Source of the DNA: Phytoseiulus persimilis | Lineage: Eukaryota > Arthropoda > Arachnida > Mesostigmata > Phytoseiidae | Length of the DNA: 64,000 nt | NCBI GenBank assembly: GCA_037576195.1 | Contig: CM075102.1 | Location: 33,352,745 to 33,416,744 of the forward strand | Direction of reading: 5' to 3' | Shown here: positions 3,001 to 61,740 of the stretch, piece after piece | How positions within the stretch are numbered: position 1 is the first letter of the stretch | Layout of the letters: each line of letters opens with the position of its first letter | Translations under genes and position numbers: made by a program | Notes under the pieces: model-generated | The model's database searches: none | The model's input: the letters and a program-made list of their open reading frames with translations, nothing else | Told to the model about the DNA's origin: nothing

Positions 3001-6000
3001 TGCAATTACAGAATAACCGAGGAATTCTTGAGGGACAATTCAGCGTCCGGAGGACAAAGCCGTTTCCTGAAGGCTCTGACCTCTGCGCCGAATTTCGATC
3101 CGAAAGATGTTCAACTCACCGTGATGGATTTCATCGCTGGGGGCGTTTTTACGATAACTCAGTCCATGGCTTTCTTCATACACCAGATTGCAATCAATCG
3201 AAGAGTTCAAGACAAGCTGGTTCAAAATCTCAGAGCTGCACCCATCCCCGCGGTGGACCCGTACCTCAAGGTAAGCGATCGAGACTAACCACTTCATTGG
3301 CACCCATCCGTCAACAAGGGGCGCTCCCGGGATTGGTTCACGCTGGCCAATCCCAGATCTCATGTAGGCAAGCTCATACAGTAAGCGACGCTTCGCGGTT
3401 TCATCATAGGAAATGAGCCATGAGAGCTACTCTGTCGAGTGAAACTATAGAGACCCGTTTCTCGACACCTTTTAGGAAGGGGTCCCAACCAACAATTGGA
3501 AGGCTTCATGTTTTCTCATAGACTTCACGATAGCGTCGGAATATTCCGATTGCCTCTGTACCGCCCGTGGTGGACGTGCGAAGTATCGGAATTCTGCTGT
3601 ATTCTGTACTCTTAACTGTGGTTCGCGGTCATATTCTTGCAAACTGAACCACAGAAGAGAAACGAGGCCATTCCCCATCTGAGCTTGCCCCTACCACCCT
3701 CTGAAAACTGACTCCCCCTTTCGGAATTATTGCAGGCTTGCATGAAAGAAACGTTCCGTGTTTCACCAACCGTACCCGGTGTGATGAGAGTCTTGCCTGA
3801 AGACACCGTGCTCTGTGATTACCAGGTTCCCGCAGGAACGGCTGTGTTCGCGAATTCTTTGATCGCATGCAGAAATGAGGTAAGCCGAGGGGTGGCCTGC
3901 GTTTTATTTGAGCCTGAAAATACACACGACATAGACTCCAGATTTCGGATTCACGGTAACATTGAGCGTCGAAATGAAAACGAATGCGAGATGTGACTCT
4001 GGATGGCGCAGTTGCCGAAAGAGCGAATCAAACAGTGTAACTTGAATTCGCCAAAAGTGATCTCTTGAGGTGAAATGAGCCAGCTGGACGATCTGGAAAA
4101 ATCCATTCTCGAACCTCGTTGGTTGCGACTCAGCTCTCGGTGTGGGTCAGCCCGACGCGACGTTCCAGATTGTCGCGACACGTATTTTCAAGTACTTGAG
4201 AACTGCGGAACACCAAGAGGAAGCGTGGTCTCGATGTAATCATCAAGACTCCAATGAAAAGTTCGCAGATTTCCCATCAGACTTCATTGTTGTGTTGATA
4301 GCTCTTCGAAGGAGATTGCCTAACGTCGTGAGAAGTATGGATTTGTTCGGTACAAAGGTTCCTTGATCTAAAGTTCGTTATTCTGGCGGTGAGTGTGTTA
4401 CTGATGCGCACTCGATTGCGTCGCGTGTTACGGAGACCGCAGGCCGGATGCTTTTCTCGCCGGACTTTCGACGTCTGCCCCAGACGTGAGCTGTTTGAGA
4501 TGAGGCTTTTCTTCTCGTCTCCAAACACGTTCTCCTTGTTCGCCCCACGAACTCACGTAGCATACCGTCTATACGCGTTGACGTTGTCAGGCTCAGTGAA
4601 CAGTTCTCGCAAGAAGGGATTTGTTGCGATGGCGATTGGATTTTATTCGACGGACATCGAAATGACGTATCATTGCCTGTATCATTATCGAATGGAGCCA
4701 ATCACGAGTCCGCAGCTCCGAATAACTCGAGTTGTGAACGTCAGAGCTCAGGCGCGCTTCAAGAGCGTTCCCGTAGACGGGCTCGCAGTCTCATGGTGAT
4801 TTTCAAGGCCTATTGTTACCGCTCTTTCCATATCGTCCAGACAAGCGCATGATTCACAGTTACAGCCGTCGTTTCCGAGACACCGGAAAAACGAGACGTC
4901 ACTGGACGTCTTGGAGGCGGTGACGCATTTTGTAGCTGTAGCAGAGACAATGGCGATATCGGTCCACCCTGACTGAATATCTTTGTGCACTTGACGAAAT
5001 CCCTCTCGTGTTGGGCTCGTCGCTCGCTCTATAAATGCCGACTGTTTGGGAGTCACCTTGTTTCTGTCGTTGCGCCAAGCGCGTTCGCTGACAGTTGGAA
5101 AGCTCAGTCATGAGTTTCGCGTTCCCCATTCTCAAGGAGGGATACGATCTATTCGGAGTGCGGCCCCAGAGACGTTCGAAGGAGCCGAAGAGTCAAACTC
5201 CTCAATCGCCCCCGAGTTACGTGAGGCTGTTGAAGAAGCTCACGGAGATCACTTCGCGAGTGAGCCGAGCTCTCCACTGAAGATCGGCAGTTCACAGGCT
5301 TTTCCTCCAGCTGTGAGCTTCTTAGATATTTTGTACATTTATTGTATATGCGCGGAATCGTATGTATACGTTGATTCCTCCTGTGCCAGTGCGCGGGCAA
5401 ACGGGGGCCTCCACAGCCCCAACGCGACTACAGACAACTTTTCGTAGGCGACGTAGTGACCCATTTCCTCGAGAGTCATGGCCTTCGACCCTCACGAGGG
5501 ACTCGGCAGGCTCATTTGCAGGCGCCGCCCAGGCGCCAGTCTGGCGCCGGCGTTGCATCCACAACAGAGGCGACCTTAAGGGTGACAGGTCTGCATCGCC
5601 TCCTCTCCGACTTCACGCTCGGGCCTATATCAGAGCAGCAGGCCCAGCGAACTCAACACACTGTCAAACACTGATCTGAACAACCAACAGCGCTCTGAGC
5701 CGAGAAACTCTGAGCAGTGAAATGGCTTTCGCTATACCGATCGTGAAGCAGAACTACGCGCTCTACGGGAGTGGCTCCGGAAGTAGCTGCAACAGTTCCG
5801 GATCTTCAGCGGCCTCGAGTCCAGTGGGGACCCCACCGAAATCGGGCGTCGGTAACCAGCAGCAACAACTGCACCATCACTTGCATCACAACCACCCTCC
5901 GGTAGCTCGAAGTGCTCTCAGACGGTCGGCTTCAGACAAGCATAACACGAATCCCGAGACCAAGGGCAAAAAGAACTTGACCAGGAATTCTGTCAGCCTA

Positions 6001-8744
6001 TCATCATTCCATGAAGCCTTGGTAGAGAAGCTCACGAAAGCTGTGCGGAAGATAAGTCGATGATCAGCTCGACTCCAGCTTCAAGTTCCCTCCACAACAT
6101 CGTTCATGGGTTCACCTGGTGCAATGATGTCCCGACACTGAAAACAGGACGAGACCACTCCATACAGATGAAGGAACACCTGGCTGTGGACTTGCGCCGG
6201 GCGAGCCCGAATGGATGACACAACGGCCGGACTCATCGCCTCCAAAAGCGTTCCGTGCGGCGGATCCTCGGAGCGGCGACTTGAGCTCCAGATGGGAATG
6301 AACTTCACCTCCGAAGAGTATGAAGCTCTAAGAGGCTGTTCTACTCGCAATGGCCATAATCGTGGAAGACCCTGCAAACGTGATGACCATCGGACGGTGG
6401 AACACGAAAGAAACCGAATGCAGATAGTGGATGCAAACGTCGATCACTGGAACTTCTACTAGAGAACTCACGAGCTCGAAATCGCGAGTGGGACTTCTCA
6501 GGGCTGGGTTGGGTTGGAGTAGTTACGTCTCCATTGTAATAAAATTGTTTCGGACTCGAGAAGGAGAACATCGAGCATATTTGCTATTCTGGCATTGATT
6601 CTACATTTCACAGTATCAGGCTCACCCGCTCTGACCAACATGACATACTCCCACTAGTTTTAACATATTCTTCCAACCTCTCATTCTGAGTTCATGCATT
6701 CCTCGAGCTTCGACGGCTCTAGTTACCTCAAGGGCCTTAACCTCGTGCCACCGTTTGAGGAAGGCTTTTTACAAAAAAGGCTCTCGGCGGGACCCGGAAT
6801 CATCGCTGAACGCTCCAATTGTTTTCAAACTAATGTCTATTCGGTAACCCAAGTGTTCCGTAAAGGTCTAAAAATACACCAAGGTGTGGTGTTTAGACGA
6901 CGCTTCGTGAAGCCTTTGATCGCAAACGACTGCGTGGTTTGTGAACGAGCTAGTAGTTCGCAAGACAGCTCTCGATGGTGGAACCCGAGAAACGCCAAGG
7001 CTGAAAGAAACTCCCATACATTTACGGTTTTTCCATGATCTGCAATCTCGATGGGCGCATTCAGATGGTCTCTATTCATTGTGAGCGATACGCCAGATCA
7101 AACCTTCCCGATGGCGGAAACGAATGGTCTACGCCAAATAATCCGAGCTCAGCATGCATTATTCTCGCCTCAGTTCTTCCTAGGTTTCTCAGAATGAAAG
7201 AAAAACGTTTCCGAGAACATGGATCGTAGAGTGCCAGCGTGAAATCGGGACAGATTCTTGTAAATCCCCCAACGACCCAACTGGCGGGTCCGAAACGTGG
7301 ACACATGCTCCATGGGAACCGCAGCTTTCGAGAAGGATCTCCATAGGAGTGCTTCCCATAGTTTGCATGCGGAATCACGACGGCGAGCACGGCCATCTGA
7401 TTTATATCGATTGAATCGAGTTTGTGGAGATCACAGAGAGAAAATTGGATTGGGATACGGACGCATTCCCTTTGGCCAGCAGCGGGCGGGAGTGCTTGGT
7501 GGAAGTCCATCTCATCCAAGGTAGGACCAGCTAGTTCGCTAGGATACCAGCGTTCTACAAGCCTGAATAATGATCCGGTCTTGCTTCATGCCTCCGTGGA
7601 GAGGGTTTGAGAACCTATCTACAATCTTTGATTCATGGTCATGTGAATCCTGATCCAGAGAGGAGCCCGTGTCTGACGCTGTCTGATGCGCGTACCATAT
7701 TGTTTCTGGTTGCCTGTATCGCTGCAGATTCTGTTTAGGCGATTCGGCTGCTTTACCGCAGATGGAGCTTGTTCTGTGAATGCGACCTTGCTCAATTCAA
7801 ACGGAGACTTGTTTCTTCACACGAACGATAAATATTCTCCCCAAAACTTGAAGAAAGTGCAGTGTTTGACCTCTCTCCCGTACTACATTCACTGTCATGG
7901 ATATTCTGACGCCGGAATAGGTGCCTGTTTGTTATCTCCAGCATGCGCTCTGTATTCCATGTTCCACCCACCTGAATTCTAGCTGCTGCAAGAAGAAAAA
8001 ACATAGTCCAGGATCAGAGGTACAAAAGTTATTTATCGTCATCTCGGCCCAGCATTCCAAGCAGAGTGAATCGGCTACTCTCTTCGCTTTGAGCTGATAT
8101 TCAACTATCAGATGAATAAAAGGAGTTCGTACCGCTCCTCTTCTGTCAGCGTGATTTTCGGGTGAAGAAGAGTTCTCGGATCGATTCGGCATCAATTCGA
8201 GAACTTTTTGCCATCTGAAAAAATTGAATGCGGCTTCCGTGATGGGAGACGGGAAGGAACGCATTCCGGCACAGCCTCTCGATTTGCTTAAAGATTTCTG
8301 AGCCAGGATTCAGACTTGACGATGTCCGGTAGCTCCTCCTCCGTGGATTATTCTTCTGAATAAAATTCAGACTCAACACACTGAAGATAGCATGTGTCAG
8401 ATGGTCCGCGTTGAATTGAAAGCTCGTCGAGTAGACTACACTTATATCGTATTTTTCTGTTCTAGGAGACATTCCACCGAGCTCTGGAGTTTATCCCGGA
8501 GCGTTGGCTCAACGGCAGACCCCAACATCCCTTCGCATTGCTGCCATTCGGTTTCGGTGCCCGGATGTGTCCAGGGCGGCATTTCGCAGAGCTCGAAATG
8601 TGTTCAGCGGTCGCATCGCTCCTTGACAAATTCGAGATTTCCAGTCCACTACAACAAATCCCACTGAAATGCATTTTTGTAATCGCTCCCGAAGGCAAAG
8701 TCCCGATCGAGATCAAGCTCCGCAGCAAGGACATGAGCGGCTGA
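1..8744 (+). CDS. Mitochondrial-clan cytochrome P450, 3' five exons (5' end outside window)
   Basis: Exons: 1-152 (partial), 1917-2106, 3012-3270, 3736-3879 and 8466-8744 (stop TGA). All junctions are GT...AG and the phases join exactly, giving about 340 residues of a family usually near 500. Visible landmarks, in order: the C-helix-to-G region with LALESIFALCLERRLG; an I helix IAGGVFTITQ; the K-helix ExxR in ACMKETFR; the PERW motif; and the haem loop PFGFGARMCPGRHFAE with its cysteine ligand. The R-x-C-x-G pattern and the ERRLG stretch fit mitochondrial-clan animal P450s, which take electrons from adrenodoxin and often act on ecdysteroids or xenobiotics. A CYP314A1 (shade)-like identity is possible, not proven. 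The I-helix acid is missing (phenylalanine or valine in its place). The last intron is 4.6 kb and contains two other genes on the same strand. Confidence 0.93.
5030..5036 (+). promoter_or_regulatory. TATA box of first nested small gene
   Basis: A TATAAAT sequence lies 74-80 bp upstream of the ATG at 5110, inside the P450 intron. A TATA box at this distance suggests the nested gene has its own promoter and is not a P450 splice product. Seen in sequence; function inferred. Confidence 0.4.
5110..5280 (+). CDS. Small basic protein, first of a nested tandem pair (56 aa)
   Basis: A single-exon frame of 56 residues with its own upstream TATAAAT. It starts MSFAFPILKEGYDLFG, has a basic, proline/serine-rich middle, and ends with a predicted amphipathic basic helix (VRLLKKLTEITSRVSR). 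The gene 440 bp downstream has the same plan: N-terminal MxFAxPIxKxxYxLxG and a C-terminal LxKLTxxxxxxSR helix with a variable middle. Conservation of both ends in two neighbouring frames is strong evidence that both are translated. There is no signal peptide or transmembrane segment. I do not recognise the family. It lies wholly within the last P450 intron, same strand, and must be transcribed independently or spliced out with the intron. Confidence 0.6.
   Translation: MSFAFPILKEGYDLFGVRPQRRSKEPKSQTPQSPPSYVRLLKKLTEITSRVSRALH
5626..5630 (+). promoter_or_regulatory. Weak TATA-like box of second nested small gene
   Basis: CCTATATCAG about 92 bp upstream of the ATG at 5722, about as far as the TATA box of the first paralogue is from its own start. 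It is a weak match; called because of the parallel spacing. Confidence 0.25.
5722..6063 (+). CDS. Small low-complexity protein, second of the nested pair (113 aa)
   Basis: A single-exon frame of 113 residues. N-terminus MAFAIPIVKQNYALYG matches the neighbour at 5110. The middle is Ser/Gly/Asn-rich, then Gln/His-rich (QQQQLHHHLHHNHPP), then a basic stretch. The C-terminal helix ALVEKLTKAVRKISR matches the neighbour's end. An AATAAA lies at 6538-6543. The pair looks like a tandem duplication in which only the ends are constrained, suggesting short interaction motifs at both termini. No known domain is recognised and localisation is unclear; there is no signal peptide. It is nested in the P450 intron on the same strand. 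Confidence 0.65.
   Translation: MAFAIPIVKQNYALYGSGSGSSCNSSGSSAASSPVGTPPKSGVGNQQQQLHHHLHHNHPPVARSALRRSASDKHNTNPETKGKKNLTRNSVSLSSFHEALVEKLTKAVRKISR
6538..6543 (+). promoter_or_regulatory. Polyadenylation signal AATAAA
   Basis: Canonical AATAAA 475 bp after the stop of the second nested gene and still inside the P450 intron. It would let the nested transcript end before the last P450 exon. Confidence 0.4.
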
Positions 8745-46418: not shown

Positions 46419-46696
46419 TTGTTGTTCTCAAGATCTGCTCGTGATCATGATCCGATGATATTGGGGAGTATTCATAATGACTCATCGGGGAGACGCATCG
46501 GGCAATATGTATTCGCCAGATTTGGTCGGCAATTCCCAAGCCCAAATTCGTTTGAGCCATGACTTTGCCATTCCGAAATATTTGAGACCAGCCGGCCCTT
46601 GGCCGACTGGAGTCGGCCGCGCTGCGCGCGGTTGTACGGCGCTCCCTGCCATCGAGGCACTCTTCTCTCCCTTCACTGGGTCAGCATTCTGATTTT

Positions 46697-48110
46697 GAAA
46701 AATATGGTCAGATTGGTCTCGGAATCACCCCTCCAGAGTTGGAAAGAAATGCTCAGATTGGTCTCGGAATCACCCCTCCAAAGTTGCAAAGTAATGCTCA
46801 GATTGACCCCGGAATAACCCCTCCACAGTTGGAAAGTAATGCTCAGATTGACCCCGGAATCACCCCTCCAGAGTTGGAAAGTAATGCTCAGACTGACCCC
46901 GGAATCACCCCTCCAGAGTTGGGAAGTGATGCTCAGATTTGTCTCGGAATCACCCCTCCAGAGTTGGAGAGTAATGCTCAAATTGACCCCGGAATCACCC
47001 CTCCAGAGTTGGAAAGTAATGCTCAGATTGGTCTCGGAATCACCCCTCCTGATTTGGAAAGTAATGCTCAGATTGGTCTCGGAATCACCCCTCCAGCGTT
47101 GGAAAGTGAAGCTCAGATTGACCCCGGAATCACCCCTCCTGATTTAGAAAGTAATGCTCAGATTGGTCTCGGAATCACCCCTCCAGAGTTGGGAAGTAAT
47201 GCTCAGATTGACCCCGGAATCACCCCTTCAGAGTTGGAAAGAAATAGCCAGATTGGTCCCGGAGTCACCCCTCCAGAGTTGGGAAGTAATGCTCAGATTG
47301 GTCTTGGAATCACCCCTCCAGAGTTGGGAAGCAATGCTCAGATTGGTCTTGGAATCACCCCTCCAGAGTTGGGAAGTAATGCTCAGATTGGTCTCGGAAT
47401 CACCCCTCCTGATTTGGAAAGAAATAGCCAGATTGGTCCCGGAATCACCCCTCCAGAGTTGGAAAGAAATGCTCAGATTGGTCTCGGAATCACCCCTCCT
47501 GATTTGGAAAGTAATGCTCAGATTTGTCTCGGAATCACCCCTCCAGAGTTGGAAAGTAATGCTCAGATTTACCCCGGAATCACCCCTCCAGAGTTGGAAA
47601 GAAATAGCCAGATTGGTCCCGGAAACACCCCTCCAGAGTTGGAAAGTAATGCTAAGATTGGTCTCGGAGTTATCCCTCCAGTGTTGGAAAGTAATGCTCA
47701 GATTGACCCCGGAATCACCCCTCCAGAGTTGGAAAGAAATGCTCAGATTGGTCTCGGAATCACCCCTCCAGAGTTGGAAAGTAATGCTCAGATTGGTCTC
47801 GGAATCACCCCTCCAGAGTTGAAAGTAATGCTCAGATTGACCCCGGAATCACCCCTCCAGAGTTGGAAAGAAATGGCCAGATTGGTCCCGGAAACACCCC
47901 TCCAGAGTTGGAAAGTAATGCTCAGATTGGTCTCGGAATTATCCCTCCAGTGTTGGAAAGTAATGCTCAGATTGATCTCGGAATCACCCCTCCAGAGTTG
48001 GAAAGTAATGGTCAGATCGACCTCGGAGTCACCTCCATAGACCCCCAGAAATATGGTCAGATCGACCCCGGAATCACCTCTTCGGGGCCCCAAAAGTATT
48101 GTCAGATCGA
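46697..48110 (+). repeat. Minisatellite array, 45-bp period, left arm
   Basis: About 30 tandem units with point changes (GTCTC/GACCCC, GAGTTG/GATTTG) and a 1-bp deletion near 47820. One forward frame is open for 433 codons, encoding a 15-residue repeat like SNAQIGLGITPPELE. Other frames are also open for long stretches, and the frame change at 47820 does not close it, which argues against coding. Confidence 0.9.
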
Positions 48111-48296
48111 CACTATCTGCCCCACTGGCACCCAGCGACACACCGCGACACCCCGCGACACACCGCGACACCCCGCGACACACTCGGCACCCTCGACACC
48201 CCGCGACACCCTTGGCACCCTCGGCACCCTGGTGTGTCGCGACACACAGTTTGACGACCTCTGGCTTAGTCTGTCAGTTTGTCCGCACTTTTCCTG
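48110..48296. repeat. Loop spacer with GC-rich CGCGACAC repeats
   Basis: Short degenerate units CGCGACACCCC/CGCGACACACC and GGCACCCTCGGCACCCT. Then comes a segment with TCTGTCAGTTTGTCCG that also marks the inner end of the array at 52.3 kb. Confidence 0.7.
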
Positions 48297-49108
48297 AAAG
48301 ACATGAGGGTGATTCCGGTACGAGTCTGACTATAATCTTCAAAAGCTGGAGGGGTGATTCCGGAACCAATCTGACCATACTTTTCAAAACGTGAAGGCGT
48401 GATTCCGGAACCGATCTGACCATTACTTCCCAATTCTGGAGGGGTGATTCCGGGGTCAATCTGAGCATAACTTCCCAACTCTGGAGGGATGATTCCGAGA
48501 CCAATCTGAGCATTACTTTCCAACTCTGGAGGAGTGGTTCCGGGGTCAATCTGAGCATTACTTTCCAACTCTGGAGGGATGATTCCGAGACCAATCTGAG
48601 CACTACTTTCCAACTCTGGAGGGATGATTCCGAACCCAATCTGAGCATTACTTTCCAACTCTGGAGGGGTGATTGCGAGACCAATCTGAGCATTACTTTC
48701 GAACTCTGGGGGGGGGTAATTCCGAGACCAATCTGAGCATTACTTCCCAACTGTGGAGGGGTGATTCCGAGACCAATCCGAGCATTACTTTCCAACTCTG
48801 AAGGGGTGATTCCGAGACCAATCTGAGCATTACTTTCCAACTCTGGAGGGGTAATTCCGAGACCAATCTGAGCATTACTTCCCAACTCTGGAGGGGTGAT
48901 TCCGAGACCAATCTGAGCATCACTTTCCAACTCTGGAGGGGTGATTCCGAGACCAGTCTGAGCATTACTTTCTAACTCTGGAGGGGTGATTCTGAGACCA
49001 ATCTGAGCACTACTTTCCAACTCTGGAGGGATGATTCCGAAACCAATCTGAGTATTACTTTCCATTTCTGGAGGGGTGATTCCGAGACCAATCTGACCAT
49101 ACTTTTCG
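48297..49108 (-). repeat. Minisatellite array, 45-bp period, right arm (inverted)
   Basis: About 18 units, the reverse complement of the left-arm unit, directly visible as repeats of CCGAGACCAATCTGAGCATT. Confidence 0.9.
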
Positions 49109-49219
49109 AAATCAGAATGCTGACCCAGTGAAGGGAGAGAAAAGTGCCTCGATGGCAGGGAGCGCCGTCCAACCGCGCGCAGCGCGGCCGACTCCAGTCG
49201 GCCAAAGGACGGCTGGTCT

Positions 49220-52200: not shown

Positions 52201-52300
52201 AGCCGTCTCCGGAAGCTTGACTATCCATGATACTGAGTGAAGTTCGAGTTAGGTCGAGACTGGTCATTTCAGGGATCCTCATCCTTACCATATATATAAT
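49220..52300. other. No supported gene between minisatellite elements
   Basis: Short overlapping frames only; the longest (50086-50514, plus) has an unconvincing composition and no homology I recognise. No tRNA or transposase seen. Confidence 0.35.
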
Positions 52301-52309
52301 CGGCTTCGC

Positions 52310-54485
52310 CTGTGAGTTTGTCAGTTTCTCAGTCAGTTTGTCCGTTCTTTTCTGGAAGATATGGGGTTGATTCCGAGACCAATCTGAAAATAGTCTTCCG
52401 AGTCTGGAGAGGTGATTCCGGCACCAATCTGACTATTACTCCCCAAGTCCGGAGGGGTGATTCCAGGACCAATCTGACCATTACTTTCCAACTATGTAGG
52501 GGTGATTTCGAGACCGATCTGACTATTAGTCCCCAAGTCTGGAGAGGTGATTCCGAGACCAATCTGACCATACTTTTCCAAGTCTGGAGGGGTGATTCCG
52601 GGAGCAATCTGACCAAATTTTTCGAAACCTGGAGGGGTGATTCTGGGACCAATCTGACCATACTTTTCCAAGTTCGGAGGGAGGGGGGGGATGATTCCGG
52701 GACCAATCTCACCATACTTTTAAAAACCTGGAGGGGTGATTCCGAGACCAATCTGACCATACTTTTCCAAGTCTGGAGGGGTGATTCCGGGACCAATCTG
52801 ACCATTACTTCTCCAAGTCTGGAGGGGTGATTCCGGGACCAATCTCACCATACTTTTCAAAACCTGGAGGGGTGATTCCGAGACCAATCTGACAATACTT
52901 TTCCAAGTCTGGAGGGGTGATTCCGGGACCAATCTGACCATTCTTTTCCAAGTTCGGAGGGGGTGATTCCGGGACCAATCTCACCATACTTTTCAAAACC
53001 TGGAGGGGTGATTCCGAGACCAATCTGACCATACTTTTCCAAGTCTGGAGGGGCGATTCCGGGACCAATCTGACCATATTTTTCAAAACCTGGAGGAGTG
53101 ATTCCGGGACCAATCTGACCATTCTTTTCCAAGTTCGGAAGAGTGATTCCGGGACCAATCTGACCATTCTTTCCCAAGTTCGGAGGGGTGATTCCGGGAC
53201 CAATCTGACCATTCTTTCCCAAGTTCGGAGGGGTGATTCCGGGACCAATCTGACCATTACTTCTCCAAGTCTGTAGGGGTGATTCCGGGACCAATCTGAC
53301 CATTACTTCTCCAAGTCTGTAGGGGTGATTCCGAGACCAATCTGACAATACTTTTCCAAGTCTGGAGGGGTGATTCCGGGACCAATCTGACCATACTTTT
53401 CCAAGTTCGGGGGGGGGGGGGGGGGGGGTGATTCCGGGACCAATCTCAACATACTTTTCAAAACCTGGAGGGGTGATTCCGAGACCAATCTGACCATACT
53501 TTTCCAAGTCTGGAGGGGTGATTCCGGGACCAATCTGACCATTACTTCTCCAAGTCTGGAGGGGTGATTCCGGGACCAATTTCAACATACTTTTCAAAAC
53601 CTGGAGGGGTGATTCCGAGACCAATCTGACCATATTTTTCGAAACCTGGAGGGGGGATTCCGGGACCAATCTGACCATTCTTTTCCAAGTTCGGAGGGGT
53701 CATTCCGGGACCAATCTGACCATTCTTTTCCAAGTTCGGAGGGGTGATTCCGGGACCAATCTGACCATTACTTCCCAACTCTGGGGGGTGAGTCCGGGAC
53801 CGATCTGACCATCACTTCCCGAGTCTGGAGGGGTGATTCCGAGACCAATCTGACCATGCTTTTACAAGTCTGGAGGGGTGCTTTCGGGACCAACCTGACA
53901 ATACTTTTCAAAACCTGGATGGGTGATTCCGGGACCAATATTACCATACTTTTTCAAGTTTGGGGGGAGGGGTGATTCCGGGACCAATCTGACCATTACT
54001 TTCGAAGTCTGGGGAAATGATTCCGGGACCAATCTGATTATTACTTCCCAGGTCTGTAAGGGCGATTCCGGGACCAATCTGACTATTACTTCTCAAGTCT
54101 GGAATGGTGATTCCGAGACCAATCTGACCAACTTTTCCAAGTCTGGAGGGATGGTTCTGGGACCAATCTGATCATACTTCTCCAAGTTCGGGGGGGGGGG
54201 GGATGCCGGGACCAATCTGACCATTACTTTCCAAGTCTGGGGGGTGATTCCGGGACCAATCTGACTATTCTTTCCCAAGTCTGGAGGGGTGATTCCGGGA
54301 CCAATCTGACCATCACTTTCCAACTCTGGACGGGTGCTTTCGAGACCAATCTGACCATTACTTCCCAAGTCTGGGGGTGATTCCGGGGCCGATCTGTCCA
54401 TACTTTTCAAAACCATGATGCTGAACAAGTGAAGAGAGAGAAAAAAGCCTCGCGGCCGACTCCAGAAGGCCGAAGGCCGGCTGGT
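52310..54485 (-). mobile_element. Second minisatellite element: a single arm of the foldback family
   Basis: Begins with the inner-end marker (GTCAGTTTGTCCGTTCTTTTCTGGAAGATAT) also present in the loop of the element at 46586. It then has about 45 copies of a related 45-bp unit (on the minus strand GACTTGGAAAAGTATGGTCA and CCCGGAATCACCCCTCC) and ends with the same terminal sequence (CGCGGCCGACTCCAG, then GGCCGGCTGGT). No inverted partner arm is present. It contains a 20-G run at 53409-53428 and a shorter one near 54190. Open frames in it are repeat-derived. Confidence 0.8.
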
Positions 54486-60039: not shown

Positions 60040-60785
60040 TGTTGGATGAGGGGTGATTTCGGGACCAATCTGACCACTACTTCCCAAGTCTGGAGGGGTG
60101 ATTCCGGGACCAATCTCACCATTACTTTCCAAGTCTGGAGGGGTGATTCCGGGACCAATCTGAGCATTACTTTCCAAACCTGGAGAGGTGATTCCGGGAT
60201 CAATCTAAGCTTATGCTCCGAGTCGGGGAGGGTGATTCCGGGAACAAACTGACCATACTTTCCTGAGCCTGGTGGCTGATTCCGAGACCAATCTGATCAT
60301 ACTTTTCTGGGTACAAAAAAGTGATTCCGATGTCAATCTGACCATTCTTTCCAAGCTCTACGGGGGTGATTCCAGGATCGACCTGACCATACTCCTGCCA
60401 TCGAGGCTCTTTCTCCACTGGCTTAGCATCTTTCCTGAGACCATCTCCTCATTCGGTTGATTGGTACATGTAGTTATGGTCAGATCGACTCCGCGATCAC
60501 GTCCTCAAAATCCGGAAAGTTTGGTCATGTCGATGCTCAGATCACGCCTCCAGACTTGGAAAGTAATGGTCAGATTGGTCTCGGAATCACCCTTTCAGAG
60601 TTGGAAAGAAATGGCCAGATTGGTCCCGGGAACACCTCTCCAGGATTGGAAAGTATGGTCAGATCTGTTCCGGAATCACCTCTCCAGACTCGGAAGAATA
60701 TGTTCAGATTGGTCCCGGAATCAACCCGATATATTCTCGACGGAGTTCGAACAAACTGAATTCGAACTGAAAGACTGAGCCGATT
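60040..60785. mobile_element. Third minisatellite element: two arms back to back
   Basis: 60046-60395 carries about 7-8 minus-type units; a partial terminal sequence (CTGCCATCGAGGCTCTTTCT, then GCTTAGCAT) follows at 60398-60445. Next come about 6 plus-type units (60476-60735), ending with the inner-end marker near 60740-60785. The outer-end sequence is thus in the middle, opposite to the arrangement at 46586. It lies between the second and third FN3 genes. Confidence 0.7.
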
Positions 60786-60789
60786 ATTT

Positions 60790-61740
60790 ATAGTGAGGAT
60801 ACTGGTGCAGATTATCAGCACAAAATCTTCTCAACTGCTCGTGCAGTTCGCACAGACCTTAACGGATCATAACTCCAATGACTTCGCCCACACCCGGTCC
60901 AGCACCCATATCGCTGTGGGCTCCAACTTTCTGTCTAAAAATACGTTGTTGATTTGGTCGAATCGGAGAGTTATCGAAGTCCAAAATGAGGAATCCTCAT
61001 CAAAGAATATCAGTGACCATCATCGGGAAAACAGCCCCCATCGTGATCTTTTCCAATGATGATGCTCGGTACCTTAAGTTCTCTTTTGTGGGAGGGCGAC
61101 ATGTTTCCATTCTGCATTTCGTCGAATAGGTTTAGCATGGTGTCCATCTCTGTTCCGCACTTGGACAAGAGTTTTGCCATGAGGGGCATCAGATTGAGGT
61201 TCCGCCCCAGGCACCATCGAGAGTTTGAGATGAATCTTAGGCCGCTCAGGTCGCGATCCCTGGTGGGTTGCCGGGCGATCCTGCGTTGCTTGAAAACATG
61301 ATTCTAGATCAATCCAAGGGGCTATTCTGGATTACTGTGTCTCTGAGCTGACGCGGAGATCAAGCTCGGAGTGTTCTGGCACGAGTGAATGGCCCTGGCA
61401 CGGGTTCGGAATCAATCCATAATTCTCGCGGGAATCATTGTGGGCTGGTGGGCCGATGACTTCTAGCTGAGACTCCAGACTTGAATGGATCGCGAAATTT
61501 TCTGAGGATTAATCCGGGTCGGTTCAGTTAGGGTCCTGGAATATCTCCAAGATGTATTCGGAACTCGCTCCCAGTTCAGATACGAAGACGCGAAGGATGG
61601 GTTCTGGTCTCTAGCAGGAATTCTCATCAGCTGAGGCGCTTCCCCGGACTCGAGCTGGATCTTCTGAAAGAAACTGCATCTTAATCGAGCTCCTTCGCGA
61701 CTCGATGCCAAGGAGAAACGGTTCTACGTTCTCGGGGGTA
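60790..61740. other. No supported gene
   Basis: Only short overlapping frames; sequence similar to the other FN3 upstream regions begins at about 61750. Confidence 0.3.

Follow-up and report, generated by a model that had tools for sequence, protein, structure and literature searches.

The window, a 64,000-nucleotide stretch of the Phytoseiulus persimilis genome, contains a palindrome whose inverted arms (46585–47094 and 48710–49219; 510 nt) are 91% complementary. Two 45-bp arrays occupy it in mutually opposite orientation (87% matches each), and the outer ends of the arms match at 95% over 120 bp. The features of the locus and its neighborhood are given below in window positions; the 3′ terminal segment and the hairpin of the left copy were placed from the sequence.

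46588–46699, minus strand: 3′ terminal segment of the left copy (element end 46588, host A 46587)
46601–46618, minus strand: 3′ hairpin of the left copy, GGCCGACT-GG-AGTCGGCC, 13 nt from the terminus
46704–48033, minus strand: left copy's 45-bp minisatellite array (29.6 units)
48008–48145, minus strand: diverged last units of the left array, together with the beginning of a short tandem stretch of GACACACC type
48146–48263, no strand assigned: part of a third dispersed repeat, last bases ...GACGACCTCTG
48264–48307, plus strand: right copy's 5′ subterminal segment (GCTTAGTCTGTCAGTTTGTCCG...), without the terminal TCCTTACTATATATAATCG
48346–49105, plus strand: right copy's 45-bp minisatellite array (16.9 units)
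49106–49216, plus strand: 3′ terminal segment of the right copy (CTGG 49213–49216, host T 49217)
49186–49203, plus strand: 3′ hairpin of the right copy
52282–54484, plus strand: complete related non-autonomous Helitron (host A 52281, T 54485)
60048–60304, plus strand: truncated 45-bp array of the palindrome's Helitron family
60541–60799, minus strand: truncated copy, 45-bp array with a Helitron 5′ end near 60799

The preliminary description read the palindrome as a foldback-like transposon, with unique and mutually inverted terminal sequences, arms of 45-bp minisatellites in opposite orientation, a short loop, and no coding capacity. The inverted arms and the opposed arrays are as described; the terminal sequences are indeed inverted copies but are not unique, the terminal 30-mer having 146 exact genomic occurrences (reversed control, 0). 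The proposed inner marker, GTCAGTTTGTCCG, proved to belong to the opposite end, as the reverse complement of its subterminal part. The two arms face each other with their 5′ sides; the 5′ end of each is lost, and a third repeat stands between them. The left copy is on the minus strand and the right copy on the plus strand, each consisting of a shell of Helitron ends around a 45-bp minisatellite. Neither arm is a complete Helitron, because both lack the 5′ TC end: The TCCTTACTATATATAATC terminus, missing from the left copy as from the right, is present in the 52.3–54.5 kb copy. Both outer junctions of the palindrome are ordinary Helitron 3′ junctions; the flanks (...AAATATTTGAGA on the left and TCTTTTCATATAG... 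on the right) are unlike each other and unrelated, and their comparison revealed no target duplication.

Nor is the loop private to this element. A query with the third repeat and loop matched 39 other genomic places (best 40 of 140 candidates, itself included). The second best match stops at base 166 of 171, short of the right arm, and only one of the 39, at C4:4993153, reaches base 171 and carries both the loop and the start of the right arm. The third repeat is characterized by GACACACC-type tandems and a sharp end at GACGACCTCTG, with a perfect 16-nt palindrome, GTGTGTCGCGACACAC, close to that end; its boundary recurs at 83% identity in another sampled stretch (L037, 4759–4866). Four consecutive loop matches (C3:29169371, 29182471, 29195570, and 29208671) are spaced 13.1 kb apart, which probably reflects tandemly arrayed 13.1-kb units.

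The 3′ segments of the two arms differ by 4.5%, and among 48 other ends compared, 25 were closer to the left arm and 31 closer to the right. The arms diverged independently and are not each other's closest relatives. An inverted chimera produced by assembly is scarcely credible: The arms are 91% rather than 100% alike, their arrays differ in length, and unrelated loci also contain inverted copies, with joints that differ. Another account would have double-3′-ended composites, such as this locus and the sampled stretch L033, copied and inserted as one unit. Both loci have outer junctions with A on one side and T on the other, ordinary flanks, and no internal 5′ end, and C4:4993153 carries the loop together with the right-arm start; yet Helitron activity requires the 5′ end, as passages of PMC6544945 state for Helraiser, and the arms diverged independently. 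We consider this account very improbable.

The relatives in the window had been said to share the palindrome's ends and inner marker. The copy at 52282–54484, three kb past the palindrome, is a complete asymmetric element: It begins 5′ TCCTTACC..., continues through an array at 52364–54408, and closes on ...GGCCGGCTGG, with the hairpin end on one side and the TATA end on the other. For the relative at 60.0–60.8 kb, an end search of the window returned no match to the hairpin end.

The genome (181 Mb, 127 contigs), whose size, LINEs, and Helitrons identify it as that of a eukaryote, was searched with the left end, and we compared 34 stretches around the best 40 of 597 left-end candidates, which with the window make 35. 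Complete copies comprise a ~115-bp hairpin end and a TATA-rich end, with a 45-bp array of ~0.3 to >3.4 kb between them; where the TATA-rich end is present opposite a hairpin end in the 35 stretches, it reads approximately TTCATGTCTTTCAGAAAAAGTGCGGACAAACTGACAGACTAAGCCGATTATATATAGTAAGGAT. A relaxed terminal 18-mer occurs at 562 places (control, 0), and the TATA-end 19-mer containing TCCTTACTATATATAATC has 233 exact copies (reversed control, 0). A script that looked specifically for the hairpin-then-TATA order listed 19 pairs of 497–2773 bp. Twelve further stretches were chosen by the TATA end alone (from the 233, on contig 1, with some sites skipped): Three contained a hairpin end (one partial), six had an array running off the stretch, and the remaining three lacked a hairpin end, although one kept a short remnant of it. 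Facing hairpin ends were found in 4 of the 35 stretches (the window, L009, L010, and L033). What had been called a transposon family rather than a chance palindrome is indeed a family with minisatellite arrays, but it is not symmetrical.

Read on the opposite strand, the two ends take on a familiar form. The TATA end becomes a 5′ Helitron terminus with TC (host A, then TCCTTACTATATATAATCGG), and the hairpin end becomes GGCCGACTCCAGTCGGCC-AAAGGCCGGCTGG followed by T, with an 18-nt hairpin 13 nt before the end and a terminal CTGG. All 50 hairpin ends have an A immediately ahead of CCAGCC (T on the opposite strand). At the TATA end, T follows AAGGA in 31 of 33 cases (A on the opposite strand), with L013, which has a doubled tail, and L040 as the exceptions. 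The terminal tetramer is CTGG in 45 of 47 ends and CTAG in 2; the CTAG form makes up ~60 of the 100 listed among the 562 relaxed 18-mer places. The usual CTGG fits CTRR and differs from the common CTAG. Passages of PMC2267711, PMC6544945, and PMC4778049 describe Helitrons as having a 5′ TC, a 3′ CTAG or CTRR, host A and T at the junctions, and no target duplication, and PMC2267711 places a 16–20 bp hairpin 10–15 nt before the 3′ end. The family displays these canonical marks: 5′ TC, 3′ CTRR, a 3′ hairpin, and insertion between A and T. At 9 of the 50 hairpin ends, the end is joined directly to the same-direction array of another copy; such joins form head-to-tail Helitron series in L010, L011, L012, L038, and L039.

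Insertion sites were informative in two nested copies. Removing the copy nested in L039 closes the host array in phase (..GTTCAGA^TTGGTCC..), as does removal of the one in L009 (..CCGGGA^TCAATCTG..); a third nested pair, in L028, leaves no clean site. The longest words shared between flanks averaged 5.28, against 4.58 after shuffling (18 pairs; 0.5% of 5000 shuffles reach this value), an excess that could hint at target duplications. After filtering, which removed three pairs situated within arrays or within further copies (L009-, L039-, and L028-) as well as one false 14-kb window pair, the means were 4.93 and 4.60 (14 pairs; 12% of shuffles reach it). On these comparisons the family appears to insert without convincing target-site duplication. 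The target is biased on one side: Past the 3′ end, AT content is 0.77 at ~4–11 nt, compared with 0.48 at greater distance (41 flanks, after 9 array-joined flanks were dropped; p 5e-8); past the 5′ end, the corresponding values are 0.52 and 0.53 (34 flanks; p 0.81). Passages of PMC4778049 report for Helraiser an AT-rich preference that is likewise one-sided and strongest beyond the 3′ end.

A retroelement of SINE- or SVA-like type with a LINE-derived 3′ part would also have a variable tail, and the (AAGGAT)n tail does vary in length among copies. In L049, a reverse-transcriptase frame with an RVT_1 match stops ~30 bp short of an array with its tail; one LINE end (C4:1865023) has array units 117 bp beyond it and another (C1:48250655) a TATA-end 14-mer ~0.5 kb beyond. 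Queried across the genome, however, the LINE junction gave 39 other copies whose matches all stop at the array boundary, base 143–154 of 221 (best 40 of 1432), and convincing target duplications are missing. The L049 neighborhood is on this search accidental, and the LINE/SVA-like origin was rejected; the SINE/non-LTR class was likewise set aside, the 3′ end not being common to the LINE. We give this derivation hardly any credence. L049 1036–2590 is itself a broken LINE copy, with close relatives whose open frames reach 933 codons.

Profile searches of the genome returned 101 matches to Helitron_like_N and 19 to Pif1_2B. On contig 3, a frame open for 1951 codons contains Helitron_like_N (214.6 bits) and Pif1_2B together. 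The 601 bases examined downstream of it contain AACCGCGCGAAGCGCGGCCGACTCCAGTCGGCCGAAGGCCGGCTGG followed by T, with hairpin and CTGG: This RepHel terminus, 551 bp after the Pif1_2B match, is the terminus of the window copies, and the last ~49 bp are common to RepHel elements and non-autonomous copies. When the downstream DNA was used as a query, 7 long matches were found among the best 40 scored (itself included), each situated 3′ to a Pif1_2B match and sharing its strand, and 6 of the 7 extend to the terminus; the other 33 matches were to the short terminus alone. Exact and relaxed pattern coordinates had placed no hairpin end near the contig 1 RepHel genes; the pattern searches missed these ends because the copies differ beyond pattern tolerance, and the similarity search found them. 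For the 5′ end, a TATA-end 14-mer at C1:21115504 lies in fitting orientation 5.3 kb upstream of one RepHel, which is weak but suggestive, and none lies near the C1:1979445 RepHel copy among the matches listed. At C2:6.23–6.76 Mb, reverse-transcriptase matches cluster, as do Helitron_like_N fragments whose stop counts are the same, which suggests an amplified segment. For the transposase that the preliminary description proposed to look for, RepHel, whose genes carry the same 3′ terminus, is the likely candidate.

We assign the family to Helitrons because its ends are asymmetric, it lacks convincing target duplications, and its hairpin end is common to RepHel genes. With a probability of roughly 0.9, the palindrome is two non-autonomous Helitrons of one family, inverted with their 3′ ends outward, and not a single foldback element. 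As an arrangement the palindrome is secondary, and this locus is best explained by two separate copies having come together, whether or not through self-nesting. A true foldback, in which end, array, loop, array, and inverted end form one unit moved by a cut-and-paste transposase, would account directly for the 510-nt inverted arms and for the four stretches with facing hairpin ends, and inverted repeats holding similar tandem repeats are described for Tetris of Drosophila virilis in passages of PMC4079207. It is nevertheless strongly disfavored, and we think it very unlikely. Copies with both ends are asymmetric (19 pairs with unlike ends); L009 is a copy nested in a copy and L010 lies within its partner's severed end; the window locus has no target duplication; the loop recurs elsewhere mostly without the right arm (1 of 39 through to base 171); the arms are not sisters; and the hairpin end belongs to RepHel genes. 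The foldback class was accordingly rejected, neither terminal inverted repeats on each mobile unit nor target duplication being found.

For the Helitron pair, the RepHel of autonomous Helitrons most likely moves the arrayed copies in trans. RepHel would nick at the 5′ TC and peel off one strand, would stop at the 3′ hairpin and CTRR, and would insert the copy between host A and T; rolling-circle copying may operate in the P. persimilis genome.

The arrays themselves appear to be noncoding, as had been proposed. The longest array ORF contains no Pfam family. Since the 45-bp unit is open in three frames, so is the array, and in those frames synonymous changes are fewer than expected (2107 units). 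Judged by these comparisons it bears no sign of coding selection, and a protein-coding minisatellite was rejected for lack of a Pfam match and of a synonymous excess in the open frames. A known RNA at the ends was also considered and rejected: Rfam models searched over the window gave 0 matches at gathering thresholds and 3 sub-threshold matches with permissive settings.

Several loci other than the window point to how such palindromes may form. In L010, L022, and L030, the DNA just outside the 3′ end is a severed TTATATATAGTAAGGAT-like partner end in opposite orientation, and the open RepHel copy likewise has a severed partner end outside its 3′ terminus. By coordinates alone, 2 of 42 exact ends on contig 1 (18128930 and 53911034) have such severed-partner neighbors, for which the chance expectation among 42 ends is ~4e-5. 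Five places, L028 and L045 among them, retain CTAAGCCGAT...ATCGGCTTAG as an intact joint (10 strand matches; control, 0). A newcomer inserts into the AT of GA^TTATATATAG, within the 5′ end of a sister copy; its 3′ end points toward the partner's TATA, and it comes to lie inverted because the AT-rich side goes beside its 3′ end. In L010, L030, L032, and L033, two arrays now adjoin directly; where arrays meet and nesting is evident, the central joint has since been lost. These joints indicate self-nesting palindromes at several loci apart from the window. In L009 the inverted copy sits inside another copy's array and not in its 5′ end, and no severed partner end was found in the outer flanks of the window palindrome or of L033. 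That the family prefers its own TATA-rich 5′ end as a target, so that oriented self-nesting builds long minisatellite palindromes that, after a frequent loss of the central joint, look like foldbacks, is in our judgment an even proposition. Within the joint of the L022 palindrome lies a 2.2-kb transposon (3817–6040) that is bounded by CACTGCCCGACA inverted ends and has an open frame of 320 codons; considered as a Helitron partner, it was rejected as a different transposon.

The Helitron family is new, whereas non-autonomous Helitrons carrying tandem arrays are already known. DINE-TR1 of Drosophila is a non-autonomous element that carries a satellite-like array. Helentron/HINE elements insert between T and T; the P. 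persimilis family has A^T junctions with CTRR, and a Helentron/HINE assignment by T/T insertion was rejected. Passages of PMC7492417 describe subterminal inverted repeats in Helentron/HINE. Satellite-like arrays occur in the oyster non-autonomous Helitron Cg_HINE, which, as described in passages of PMC7492417 and PMC8268682, resembles the present family in having two short conserved end modules around a variable tandem array dispersed genome-wide; its unit is mostly 140–180 bp, unlike the 45-bp unit of P. persimilis, where arrays reach >3.4 kb.

In its ends the family resembles the bat Helraiser/Helibat elements (TC...CTRR, 3′ hairpin, A^T target, AT-rich 3′ side); the passages of PMC4778049 consulted describe for Helraiser neither a minisatellite nor self-nesting at the 5′ end. 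Adjacent maize Helitrons offer a precedent for nesting next to an older copy (passages of PMC2267711), but the maize pair is head-to-tail and dissimilar, whereas the P. persimilis copies belong to one family, are inverted, and lie in the partner's TATA stretch. Orientation-specific Helitron self-nesting was not named in the literature searched, which was covered mostly by listings and partial passages. Tetris likewise carries tandem repeats in inverted arms and feeds satellite arrays, according to passages of PMC4079207; it has terminal inverted repeats, target duplications, ~220-bp repeats, and no known transposase, whereas the P. persimilis family has asymmetric ends and RepHel genes that carry its 3′ end.

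An apparent foldback is thus recast as Helitrons that spread a minisatellite, with a likely source of the enzyme in the same genome. An AT-rich side beyond the 3′ end, combined with a TATA-rich 5′ end, would constitute a rule that yields palindromes without terminal inverted repeats, and such palindromes may be carrying foldback mislabels in repeat libraries.
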